This document shows positions 1,666 through 20,019 of a stretch of 20,019 nucleotides of DNA, piece by piece. Made by a program: the position numbers and the translations under genes. The notes beneath the pieces are model-generated. The model was not told where the DNA came from. It saw only the letters and a program-made list of their open reading frames with translations, and ran no database searches. The stretch is taken from positions 1 through 20,019 of IMG/VR virus record IMGVR_UViG_3300020437_000220, one strand, 5' to 3'. Positions within the stretch are counted from its first letter, which is position 1, and each line of letters starts with the position of its first letter. The DNA comes from a virus.

Positions 1666-4614
1666 TTAAATTGTACCGAAGTCGAGTTGTAAATTGTTTC
1701 CGCTTATAGTTGCTACCTCTGTAAGGTTGAAGTTATTGCAATCTAATGCACCAGCAAGTTCAGGTGTAGTATCGTCAGCTACGTTCTGAATACCAGAGTT
1801 AGATGTAATACCTAACCATGCAGAACCGTTATAGTTTTTTAATGTATTAGTACTTCCGTCAAACCATAAATCACCAGCACTAGGACTGGATGGTTGAGTG
1901 TTAGAAATTTGGTATTCATTTGCATACCTATTAACATCTGAAATAGATGCGGAAACTGTGTTTATATTTGTCGCGTTAGAAACTGCTGCGTTAATATTTG
2001 ATGCGTTGGTAACCGCAGCGTTAATATTACTTGTATTGTTAGCTACCGCAGTAACGTCTGAGTTGATAGTAGCCACGGTATTAATGTTTGTAGCATTGGT
2101 GACAACAGCATTAATATTTGATGCGTTGCTAACAGCAGCATTAATATTAGAAGCGTTAGCTTGTACGGCGTTAATGTTTGTTTCATTTGCTTGTACCGCA
2201 TTAATGTTAGATGAATTGTTTGCAACTGCTGTTACGTTAGAAGTTATACCTCCAACCGCTACAACACTAGAAGCAATATCAGCTACAGCTTTAATTGGGT
2301 CTTCGACTACAGTTATGGTGTTACCCATACCACTGTGATTTGTACAGTAATATTGGAAATTAGTTGGTTGTGATTCTGGTATTACAATTTGTACTTTTGC
2401 ACCAGTTTGTCCCTGAGTACCAGTAACCGTTACGTTAGTTGAGTACTGTGAACTACCAGCATAAAATCTAAATGGATGAGCACCATTAGAACTATCACTC
2501 ACATCAAATGTATAAGTCCAACCTTTGTGTAGTGTAAGGGTAGGAGCTTGTACTCCATCTATTAAGAATTTACCTCCAGATGCAGTGACAGTAAATGTTC
2601 TTTCATCTTCTAAAGCATCTGCAACTATATCTAATGAACCATTAGAACTACCTGTAGATACAGGGTCAGTAATTAATCCGAGGTCTTCTGCATAAGTAAT
2701 CGCACCTGAGACAATAGCAATATCGTTAAGAACACTCTGTGCAGGGGTGATGATAGCCCAATTAGACCCGTCCCATACCCGTAAATTGCCATTGGAATTA
2801 TCAAACCATAAATCACCGCTTTGTAAACTTGTTCCATCTACTCTTTGTGAAGGTGGGTTAGAATCTATTTGATATAAATCTGCAAAGTTATTTATGTCAA
2901 CTACGTTTGCACCGGCTGCCACAATGTTAATAATATTCTGAGCAACAGTATTAACTTGAGTAGCTATAGGTACTAATCTGTGAAATGTATATTCATCAAG
3001 AGTTGCTGTAGATTCAACTAATAAACCAAATCCACTTGGCAAATCTAAAGGAACATTTTTTATAGTTACTGTTCTATTTCCGGGAGCGTCTGGACCACTA
3101 CTAACAGCTACTGTTCCGTTAGCAATACTTACATTAGTTCCAGTACGAGTATATCCAGTAGTTAAAGCACCAATACTTAATATTGCTGATTGACCTGTAG
3201 CACCTTGTGGGTTTGTATTTGGAAAATTTAATTCGTCAGCAATAACTGTAAAACCACCAACCTCGTCAACAAGGTCAATAATTCTTGCGTTAATAGCAGC
3301 AGTTGTAGCTACAAATGAGTCTGAGTTAGACCAAGTTTGTCCACTAGCAAGTGTTTCTGAAGAATCCTGTCTTAGGAATAAAGCTTCAGCTTCTGTTTCT
3401 GTGTAGTATCTGTTATCTAATTGACCAGCGTCTAACTCTGTTTCTGTATAATACCTAGTATCAGCAGCACCGTTAGCTATTTCTGTTTCAGTAAAATATC
3501 TACCATCTAATGCACCATTTAAAAGTTCTGATTCTTGGAAATACTGGTCATCTAATTGACCACCATTTAGTTCAGCTTCGGTATAATATCTACTATCAAT
3601 AGCACCGCCAGTAGTAAGTTCAGTCTCAGTAAAATATCTGTTATCTAGTTGACCAGCATCTAGTTCAGTCTCGGTATAATATCTACCATCAACGGCACCA
3701 TTAGTTAACTCACTTTCTGTAAAATATAAATTATTTAACTGACCACCATCTAGCTGACTTTTTGTGTAGTACCTAGGGTCAAGAACTCCATTATCAAGTT
3801 CTGTTTCTGTGTAATATCTATTGTCTAGTTGTCCAGCATCTAGTTCGTTTTCTGTGTAATATCTATTGTCTAGTTGACCAGCGTCTAGCTCAGTCTCAGT
3901 GTAATATCTATTATCTAATGTACCTAATTCTATATCTTCTTCTTTAATGCTTCTGTTAACTACGTTGTCTCCAGAAACAGTTATATCTATAGGTAGAGGA
4001 CCTCCTCCTAATTTATCTAAAGTTACAGAATCGTTTAATAATTTAGAACCTTGTATATTTGCACTAGGACTTACGTCCGCATCTTTTATAGTTCCATCAA
4101 CTATGTTGTCAGTGTTGACAGTAATGCCTGTTGGTAGTGCACCATTAGCAAGTTTTGTAAGTCCTATAGCTGCGTTTGCATTAATATCATCATTAACGAT
4201 AGTTCCATCTAAAATCTTTTGAGATGTAACTTGTCCATCTCTAAGGTCCTGTTCAATTATGTCGTTTCTACTTTCTTGAATACCATGTCTAACTAAAGTT
4301 TCTAAGGCATTTAAGTCCGCAGCTTTAATAGATGAACCGGGAGTAAAAGTTACTGTAGGTGTAGTTACATCTGTTTCACTATATACGTGTATGGTTTTAC
4401 CGCTTTGGTCATCTCCAAAGGTAATGCGCGTGCTGTTAGCAGCTATTTTGTATTCTCCTGTCCCCGGAGTTCCTGTAGTACCTATAAAGGTTAAAGGATT
4501 ACCTCCGTTAATTCTGACTTTAATGTCAGATTCATTTATGTATTGAGTTGTAAAATCTAACAACTTGCCACCGGCTATAGTTGTTGATGTAAATTCTTCA
4601 GTTTTTGTCGCCAT
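1666..4614 (-). CDS. T7 gp17-like tail fibre protein, 982 aa, with an internal cupredoxin-like domain
   Basis: Residues ~1-115 match the T7 gp17 N-terminal domain that anchors fibres to the tail (INESDIKVRINGG, ITFGDD, IKAADLNALETLVRHGIQESRND). Then come a linker with DGTIKDADV/LPIDITVSGDNV motifs, twelve 15-residue repeats at 233-412 (consensus LDNRYYTETELDAGQ), a GDLWFD...WDGSNW module near 600, a cupredoxin-like domain at 674-772, eleven 10-residue repeats at 790-899 (consensus NASNINAAVS) and a second GDLWFD...YNGSAW module near 914. T7 gp17 is 553 aa, so this fibre is much extended by modular repeats. It follows the gp16-like gene as in T7 and abuts a second adhesin gene. There is no strong Shine-Dalgarno before the ATG. 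I see no chaperone domain at its own C-terminus; folding may depend on the downstream protein, which is inference. Confidence 0.92.
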   Translation of the reverse strand: MATKTEEFTSTTIAGGKLLDFTTQYINESDIKVRINGGNPLTFIGTTGTPGTGEYKIAANSTRITFGDDQSGKTIHVYSETDVTTPTVTFTPGSSIKAADLNALETLVRHGIQESRNDIIEQDLRDGQVTSQKILDGTIVNDDINANAAIGLTKLANGALPTGITVNTDNIVDGTIKDADVSPSANIQGSKLLNDSVTLDKLGGGPLPIDITVSGDNVVNRSIKEEDIELGTLDNRYYTETELDAGQLDNRYYTENELDAGQLDNRYYTETELDNGVLDPRYYTKSQLDGGQLNNLYFTESELTNGAVDGRYYTETELDAGQLDNRYFTETELTTGGAIDSRYYTEAELNGGQLDDQYFQESELLNGALDGRYFTETEIANGAADTRYYTETELDAGQLDNRYYTETEAEALFLRQDSSETLASGQTWSNSDSFVATTAAINARIIDLVDEVGGFTVIADELNFPNTNPQGATGQSAILSIGALTTGYTRTGTNVSIANGTVAVSSGPDAPGNRTVTIKNVPLDLPSGFGLLVESTATLDEYTFHRLVPIATQVNTVAQNIINIVAAGANVVDINNFADLYQIDSNPPSQRVDGTSLQSGDLWFDNSNGNLRVWDGSNWAIITPAQSVLNDIAIVSGAITYAEDLGLITDPVSTGSSNGSLDIVADALEDERTFTVTASGGKFLIDGVQAPTLTLHKGWTYTFDVSDSSNGAHPFRFYAGSSQYSTNVTVTGTQGQTGAKVQIVIPESQPTNFQYYCTNHSGMGNTITVVEDPIKAVADIASSVVAVGGITSNVTAVANNSSNINAVQANETNINAVQANASNINAAVSNASNINAVVTNATNINTVATINSDVTAVANNTSNINAAVTNASNINAAVSNATNINTVSASISDVNRYANEYQISNTQPSSPSAGDLWFDGSTNTLKNYNGSAWLGITSNSGIQNVADDTTPELAGALDCNNFNLTEVATISGNNLQLDFGTI
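1918..2247 (-). repeat. Eleven in-frame 30-bp (10-residue) repeats in the fibre gene
   Basis: This stretch encodes residues 790-899 as 11 consecutive decapeptides: units such as NASNINAAVS, NATNINTVAT, ITSNVTAVAN and SISDVNRYAN, without insertions. Asn and small residues recur with a period of ten, which suggests a regular fibrous fold (a beta-helix or coiled shaft). The units have diverged at DNA level while the period is kept exactly, as expected for selection on the protein. Confidence 0.85.
2299..2595 (-). other. Cupredoxin-like domain inside the tail fibre (residues ~674-772)
   Basis: Within the fibre ORF about 99 residues read as a cupredoxin: a strand starting FTVTASGGKFLIDG, then PTLTLHKGWTYTFDVSD, NGAHPFRF, a beta-rich stretch, YYCTNHSGMG and ITVVED. 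The putative type-1 copper ligands are His713, Cys757, His760 and Met763. The Cys-x2-His-x2-Met spacing is that of amicyanin, and the 44-residue gap from first His to Cys lies between plastocyanin (47) and amicyanin (39). I checked the His713 and Cys757 codons against the DNA. Fold and copper binding are inferred from motif and length only. Confidence 0.72.
3379..3918 (-). repeat. Twelve in-frame ~45-bp (15-residue) repeats in the fibre gene
   Basis: Residues 233-412 are 12 tandem units of consensus LDNRYYTETELDAGQ; one unit has a single extra residue (TTGGA) and the last is one residue short. Tyr-Tyr/Phe-Thr-Glu and Leu-Asp recur at fixed spacing. Identical 15-mers occur in separated units (for example the first unit, with the later LDNRYYTETE copies), which suggests duplication or recombination between units as well as selection on the protein. 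Confidence 0.88.
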
Positions 4615-18703: not shown

Positions 18704-18943
18704 TTAACATTTCCATTTACGAAGGGCAAGAGCCTTACGTGTAGGCTTGCCGTTTGGTTTTTTCATTGGTCCCTTTACTCCGCTCATCCGAGCACAGAAG
18801 GAACGTTTGCGAGGTCCGCCCTGAGGCTGTGGAGCCTTCAGGTTGGAGCCAGTCGCAGCGTTATATTTTTTTCTGCCAGCAGCCGTAAGCCCACCGGTAC
18901 GCGATTTATGTTTGCCTATCTTTAGGCTTACGTTCTTTGACAT
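18704..18943 (-). CDS. Small basic protein, DUF6321-like, 79 aa
   Basis: The order of motifs is that of a widespread short phage protein: KSRTGGLTAAGRKKYNAATGSNLKAP, then RKRSFCARMSGVKGP, and a C-terminal RKALALRKWKC. The Ser-Phe-Cys-Ala-Arg-Met block and terminal Lys-Trp-x-Cys are the most telling; the two Cys (within SFCARM and at the C-terminus) could bind metal or form a disulphide. I associate this pattern with DUF6321, from memory. It is strongly basic and soluble. The ATG overlaps the psbA stop (TAATG) with AGGA a few bases upstream, so it is co-expressed with D1. Function unknown. Confidence 0.83.
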   Translation of the reverse strand: MSKNVSLKIGKHKSRTGGLTAAGRKKYNAATGSNLKAPQPQGGPRKRSFCARMSGVKGPMKKPNGKPTRKALALRKWKC

Positions 18944-20019
18944 TATCCTATAGTTGGTGCTGATAGAGCCACTTGTGTTGCCTCTGTTGAAGCTAAGTCA
19001 AGTGGGAAGTTATGAGCGTTACGCTCGTGCATCACTTCCATACCTAGACTCTGCCTGTTAAGAACATCAGCCCAAGTAGGAATGACTTTACCATTAGCGT
19101 CTACTACTGACTGGTTAAAGTTAAAACCATTAAGGTTAAAAGCCATAGTAGATATACCCATGGAGGTAAGCCATATGCCAATAACCGGGAAAGCACCAAG
19201 AAAGAAGTGCAGCGCACGGCTATTGTTGAATGAAGCATATTGAAATATTAGTCTACCAAAGTAACCGTGTGCAGCTACGATGTTATAAGTCTCGCCTTCC
19301 TGACCAAACTTATACCCGTAGTTCTGTGATTCAGTTTCCGTGGTCTCCCGAATGATTGAGGAAGTAACAAGGCTTCCGTGCATAGCAGCAAACAAAGCAC
19401 CACCAAATACCCCTGCAACGCCGAGCATATGGAATGGGTGCATAAGAATGTTGTGTTCTGCTTGGAAGACAAACATGAAGTTGAATGTTCCACTGATTCC
19501 TAAAGGCATACCATCAGAGAATGAACCCTGACCGAATGGATAAACTAAGAATACAGCTAGAGCTGCTGACAATGGAGCTGTGTATGCCACAAATATCCAT
19601 GGTCTCATACCTAGTCTGTATGAAAGTTCCCACTGTCTACCAGCGTATGCTGCTACTCCTATTAAGAAGTGAAAGACAATGAGTTGATATGGTCCGCCGT
19701 TGTATAACCACTCGTCTAAAGTGCCAGCTTCCCAGATCGGGTAAAAGTGCAGTCCGATTGCGTTGGAGCTAGGGACTACTGCTCCAGATATAATATTGTT
19801 CCCGTACATTAACGAGCCGGAAACGGGCTCACGTATGCCATCTATATCTACAGGTGGTGCTGCGATAAAGGCGATTATGAAACATGTGGTAGCAGTTAGT
19901 AATGCTGGAATCATTAGCACACCGAACCAACCTACGTATAGGCGGTTGTTTGTGCTAGTGACCCAGCTACAAAACTTCTCCCAGTTGGTAGTAGTGTCTC
20001 TTTGTAATGAGATTGCTGC
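18943..20019 (-). CDS. psbA: Photosystem II D1 protein (5' partial, only the start codon missing)
   Basis: The frame is open to the window edge and gives 358 residues; aligning Trp14 and the C-terminus shows that the first visible codon is D1 residue 2, so only Met1 lies outside. All key residues are present at canonical numbers: His118, Tyr161 (TyrZ), Asp170, Glu189, His190, His198, His215, His252, Ser264, His272, His332, Glu333, His337, Asp342 and Ala344, followed by a 15-residue C-terminal extension for CtpA cleavage. Residue 130 is Gln (GRQWELS), the low-light D1:1 state. Residue 243 is Gly where host D1 usually has Glu, in the loop linked to D1 turnover. D1 would replace damaged host protein in thylakoids during infection. 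No intron is present. Confidence 0.99.

Follow-up and report, generated by a model that had tools for sequence, protein, structure and literature searches.

The known cupredoxins are either electron carriers that the cell exports or domains of oxidases, and type-1 copper sites built from two histidines, a cysteine, and a methionine are generally electron-transfer centers. Among openly accessible journal papers, we found no report of phage tail proteins with a domain of the cupredoxin, blue copper, or plastocyanin-like kind. The nearest published idea is that of iron sites in phage fibers, where HxH sites in marine phages were proposed to make a contact of the 'Ferrojan horse' type (PMC11705849). 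The fold and ligands of the tail fiber domain analyzed here are known but their architectural setting is new, and the domain appears to have been previously unrecognized in phage fibers and baseplates; automatic databases may already assign the cupredoxin superfamily to some of these phage proteins.

The Tail Fiber Gene and Its Predicted Metal Ligands

The whole stretch of DNA that was analyzed, hereafter the window, is a 20,019-base IMG/VR virus record whose gene content reads as that of a T7-like marine cyanophage, with recognizable genes for PsbA, a major capsid protein, a nozzle protein, and two 2OG-Fe(II) oxygenase-like proteins. The psbA gene (photosystem II D1; 18943–19920, minus strand; Photo_RC E 2.5e-81) lies near the window end. 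The two oxygenase-like genes (PF13759; 17193–17723 and 17707–18357, minus strand) are adjacent and overlapping and lie near the capsid gene; S-TIP37 has one such gene, near its fiber genes. The tail fiber of the window, which is gp17-like by position and architecture, aligns end to end with the tail fiber-like protein of S-TIP37 (30.5% identity across residues 3–965). The features of this gene are as follows.

1666–4614 (−): tail fiber gene, 982 aa (open reading frame; PHROG tail fiber families; S-TIP37 alignment)
2749–2877 (−): small beta module 'GDLWFDNSNGNLRVWDGSNW', residues 580–622, upstream of the cupredoxin-like domain (strands in the 241-residue model)
2611–2724 (−): linker, residues 631–668, mostly of low confidence (pLDDT <50 in the 241-residue model)
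2305–2604 (−): cupredoxin-like domain, residues 671–770 (AF2 model; longer model; Foldseek against PDB)
2476–2478 (−): His713, predicted N-terminal metal ligand, equivalent to amicyanin His53 (hhalign; invariant in 105/105 domains)
2344–2346 (−): Cys757, predicted metal ligand, equivalent to amicyanin Cys92 (hhalign; invariant in 105/105)
2335–2337 (−): His760, predicted metal ligand, equivalent to amicyanin His95 (hhalign; invariant in 105/105)
2326–2328 (−): Met763, predicted axial ligand, equivalent to amicyanin Met98 (hhalign; invariant in 105/105)
2218–2298 (−): start of a long helix leading into NINAV-type repeats, residues 773–799 (helix 214–240 of the 241-residue model, low to moderate confidence)
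1807–1926 (−): second 'GDLWFDGSTNTLKNYNGSAW' module, residues 897–936, downstream of the NINAV-type repeats (sequence)

The fiber thus runs from the small beta module through the linker, which is probably flexible, to the cupredoxin-like domain, the long helix with its NINAV-type repeats, the second beta module, and the C-terminus. The domain is an in-line shaft module and is not visibly placed at a receptor-binding tip. About 12–14 'LDNRYYTETELDAGQ' repeats form an array in the N-terminal half of the fiber (about 3370–3930, minus strand).

The four residues named in an earlier note on this DNA (His713, Cys757, His760, and Met763) were all found at these numbers, in the canonical order and spacing of a type-1 copper site with axial Met (H713, C757-x2-H760-x2-M763), whereas the boundaries which that note gave for the domain (2299–2595, residues 674–772) were close to those of the modeled domain and shifted by a few residues. 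C-x2-H-x2-M occurs in a single open frame of the window, the other two six-frame matches having stops at or beside the motif. Apart from the initiator, Met763 is the sole Met of the 982-aa fiber, and Cys is found at just two positions (757 and 959). Among 11 distinct full-length fibers of the same clade, non-ligand Met and Cys amounted to 0.15 and 0.04 per 100 aa, respectively; these fibers were chosen by the motif, so that their ligand Met and Cys are present by construction. That fibers nearly devoid of Met and Cys keep one Met and a free Cys here points to selection.

Fold Prediction and Sequence Relation to Cupredoxins

As searches with one sequence gave signals too faint for a decision, profiles and structure were used. 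In Pfam, Copper-bind (E 0.14) and Cupredoxin_1 (E 0.02) remained below their curated cut-offs, with 13.0 and 15.3 bits for PF00127 and PF13473 against gathering cut-offs of 21.2 and 27 bits, respectively, and phmmer of the single domain sequence against PDB gave no cupredoxin match. A sequence relation to the cupredoxin fold superfamily was detectable with profiles. A profile built from 19 sequences matched copper nitrite reductase (E 2.8e-4) as well as pseudoazurin (E 0.03) among the sequences in PDB, and a profile–profile comparison by hhalign paired all four residues with the amicyanin/plastocyanin ligands (E 2.3e-5, at a probability of only 76). The hhalign target consisted of amicyanin (identical to 1AAC) and presumed sequences of two plastocyanins and one pseudoazurin. 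The amicyanin spacing, Cys-x2-His-x2-Met, which had been claimed for the fiber, is borne out by this alignment.

Given the window domain aligned with 39 metagenomic relatives (40 sequences in all), AF2 predicted an all-beta domain (pLDDT 89.2, pTM 0.82) with a cupredoxin-like strand layout, in which His713 lies just ahead of a strand, Cys757 at a strand end, and His760 and Met763 in a loop followed by the last strand. The domain was kept in a second model of 241 residues made from a different alignment, with block-mean pLDDT values mostly of 87–97. In Foldseek searches against PDB, the top 24 matches of the first model (best E 5.1e-5) were without exception copper proteins that contain cupredoxin domains, namely copper nitrite reductases, laccases/multicopper oxidases, and rusticyanin, and the 241-residue model matched plastocyanins, pseudoazurin, amicyanin, and AcoP. 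The AF2 model and these matches, nearly all of the best being cupredoxins, are consistent with the Greek-key beta-sandwich of about eight strands of the superfamily, as a prediction only because TM-scores to PDB cupredoxins were moderate (about 0.4–0.6). The proposal of a cupredoxin-like domain is thus supported by the predicted fold. Among BFVD models, Foldseek also matched two small 'beta-sandwich proteins' of Pithovirus LCPAC (A0A481Z7Q7 and A0A481Z6J5; E about 1e-6).

Conservation of the Predicted Ligands

The first IMG/VR profile scan used C-x2-H-x2-M itself and was excluded as evidence of ligand conservation; since a pattern that contains the motif guarantees it, two motif-free baits were used. 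With the first, a domain fragment without the Cys/His/Met end, His and C-x2-H-x2-M were found in 53/53 distinct sequences. With the second, the separate upstream GDLWFD module, the domain was found with C-x2-H-x2/3-M at 77/77 loci, loci cut by contig ends being left out. Pooled, both baits gave 105 distinct complete domains, all of which carried the four residues; this set has a mild bias, a match having been required nearly to the profile end. Eleven of the 99 columns were invariant in these domains, the four predicted ligands among them, for which the chance would be about 9e-5 if columns were exchangeable, a yardstick only because the sequences are related. The His–Met loop was one residue longer in 11 of the 105 domains (e.g., CSVHGNAM), with all four ligands kept. 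The four ligands were also invariant across 19 diverse sequences, the most distant of which shared 37% identity with the domain of the window. The free variation of ligands among marine phage homologues that would speak against the site was accordingly not seen in the motif-free set. All ligands are kept with the lengthened loop, C-x2-H-x3-M, an azurin-like H–M spacing, in copies L316, L338, L347, L358, L359, L361, and others.

Distribution of the Domain and Ligand-Less Copies

A tblastn search of phage isolate records with a relative of the window domain as the query matched 841 places in 359 records. The carriers were marine phages of Synechococcus, Prochlorococcus, Pelagibacter, and Methylophilales, plus a few identified no further than as marine or uncultured, and the annotations at the matches were tail fiber, gp9 baseplate wedge tail fiber connector, gp7 baseplate wedge initiator, and structural protein. 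The domain, treated in the earlier note as a one-off in one fiber, is therefore a widespread module, some paralogues of which are free of ligands. The 19 genomes searched whole contained from 0 to 5 copies each; the S-TIP37 genome had none, though its fiber is alignable over nearly the whole length. Three matches in bacterial genome records proved to be viral sequence, two of them sitting among phage head and tail genes and the third being equal in length to an IMG/VR contig, and a plasmid search gave no match to the domain. Given its spread across phage tail proteins, this result on plasmids, and the viral nature of the 'bacterial' matches, the domain looks like a virus-specific module that moved between tail proteins.

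Forty-seven copies, 46 from 18 isolate genomes and that of the window, were scored for the ligands. His and C-x2-H-x2/3-M were both present in 28, both absent in 17, and only His was kept in 2, an association with a Fisher p of 6e-11 that is descriptive, the copies being related. In the ligand-less copies, most of the fold-core glycine, tyrosine, and phenylalanine residues were usually kept. These paralogues show that the fold is independent of the metal. Isolates with complete domains include S-RIM2, P-SSM4, and Pelagibacter phage Baldr, while the second copy of S-H9-2 is one of those naturally free of ligands.

Several copies stand apart. Cyanophage PSS2 has a nearly stand-alone copy (L253; ACT65642.1, locus 3992–4330) beside tape-measure genes, in which His, Cys, and the second His are replaced and only Met is kept. 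Copies L295, L296, L299, and L285, in giant baseplate-region ORFs of T4-like cyanophages, are ligand-less with a conserved 'SSMxGGNLSF...NISYYFDPSR' and apparently make up a family branch whose role is solely structural. Two further copies of P-HM2 and P-SSM2 (L298 and L301) are more like ordinary cupredoxins ('YSYICGIHSSMKGTITV' and 'YYYVCQNHAAMQGQIVV') and are perhaps closest to the cellular ancestor.

Possible Roles of the Domain

Fold, ligand set, conservation, module reuse, and the all-or-none pattern come from prediction and alignment. Metal binding is suggested by which ligands are present, by how well they are conserved, and by their retention or loss as a set, and from there we infer the identity of the metal, its loading route, and its role. 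With moderate confidence, we propose that the cupredoxin-fold domain of the fiber, with its complete type-1 ligand set (two His, Cys, and Met), binds a metal, probably copper, and serves the virion as a unit of structure or adhesion. Each chain would hold a single metal ion, in all likelihood copper, by His713, Cys757, His760, and Met763, and this ion would fix the ligand-bearing loops, giving a rigid, metal-locked beta-sandwich on the virion exterior that could serve as a spacer or adhesion module. Because the cytosol in which the fiber is made has hardly any free copper, the site would probably take up its metal once the cell has lysed, either from seawater or at the envelope of the host. 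Against this reading, the first His is followed by Pro, where plastocyanin and amicyanin have Asn.

A rather unlikely explanation, though the most probable of the alternatives, is that the domain is a plain structural beta-sandwich of cupredoxin ancestry, with ligands kept by descent or packing and a metal-free virion. The fold signature persists without any ligand in the 17 paralogous copies, such sandwiches are widely reused in phage fibers, and we know of no cellular copper chaperone that would be expected to serve a cytosolic virion protein. However, residues needed for packing only would be lost singly, whereas the observed set was complete in 28 copies, absent in 17, and partial in 2; it also survives a changed loop length, and a free Cys and a Met are kept in proteins otherwise nearly free of them. 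Retention by descent, one of the options raised earlier for this domain, is weakened by these observations. The all-or-none pattern speaks for a functioning metal site and against a relic, as loss of the set as a unit would fit selection on one metal site and packing residues would be expected to decay piecemeal.

Alternatively, the domain could be a copper-carrying contact module, in which a protein of the host envelope recognizes or receives the copper of the virion, as a copper analogue of the 'Ferrojan horse'; we regard this as improbable. The presence of the domain in fibers and in gp9, the baseplate fiber connector, and the precedent of the proposed HxH iron sites (PMC11705849) would be in agreement with such a contact, but the domain lies between the linker and the helical repeats, beyond which come another module and the C-terminus, and a tip position is not visible. 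It is very doubtful that the domain is a redox device cycling between Cu(I) and Cu(II), for instance to detoxify oxidants or to hand on electrons at the surface of the host: sites with these ligands are usually electron-transfer centers, but a partner or second redox center was not recognized in the fiber, and the repeated copies across unrelated tail proteins suggest a building block. Mimicry of plastocyanin to bind a photosynthetic host partner, also envisaged in the earlier note, is the least probable reading, for although the hosts of most carriers are cyanobacteria and cyanophages carry plastocyanin genes, the domain is also present in phages of the non-photosynthetic Pelagibacter and Methylophilales, the partners of plastocyanin reside in the thylakoid lumen and not on the cell surface, and phages have separate petE genes, a plastocyanin query matching one place per phage record which, among the matches listed, was plastocyanin or its neighbors, with no fiber named.

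If intact blue-copper domains of virions held copper, surface copper availability might control the state of the fiber or host contact, and virions might be a specific copper ligand in seawater, an extension of the metal-site proposal that we consider improbable. With a complete type-1 ligand set in structural proteins of very common ocean phages, copper would join the metals proposed to play a part in phage adsorption and trace-metal cycling. The finding also offers an annotation where the module is at present called just 'tail fiber' or 'hypothetical'.

Comparison with Known Systems

Amicyanin of Paracoccus denitrificans (PDB 1AAC) shares the H...C-x2-H-x2-M spacing, its four ligands are aligned by hhalign, and Foldseek matched 1MDA with a TMt of 0.57. 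Unlike the phage domain, which has His then Pro inside a virion fiber and about 19% identity, amicyanin is a free periplasmic electron carrier with His53 then Asn; the H-N after the first ligand, the methylamine dehydrogenase context, and the exported free protein that mark amicyanins were not found here. Plastocyanins, both cyanobacterial and phage-borne (petE), resemble the domain in fold and ligand types (Foldseek matches 1BAW, 3BQV, and 1AG6), but have the loop C-x2-H-x4-M in place of the x2 or x3 loop of the phage domain, and the fiber domain was not seen among the listed petE matches.

Copper nitrite reductases with an extra cupredoxin domain (6HBE and 2DV6) were the best sequence-profile and Foldseek matches, and 'YICSIHPYM' of 6HBE has the C-x2-H-x2-M loop of the fiber; they are multi-domain periplasmic enzymes with a catalytic type-2 site, whereas the phage domain lacks such a site. 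Multicopper oxidases and laccases were likewise matched by Foldseek, and the 'HP' of the fiber resembles HPxH at their type-1 site (6VOX alignment), but the phage domain is without the HxH trinuclear ligands and differs in the last loop. The HxH iron sites of T4 gp37 and alterophage R22Y fibers are also proposed metal sites in a tail fiber, in the latter case of a marine phage, but they are histidine-only iron sites in a trimeric fiber, with unrelated fold and ligands (PMC11705849). Finally, although it is another protein in another virion position and copper is missing from its annotation, the cyanophage gp9 'baseplate wedge tail fiber connector' (PHROG 677) has a homologous C-terminal domain with complete ligands.
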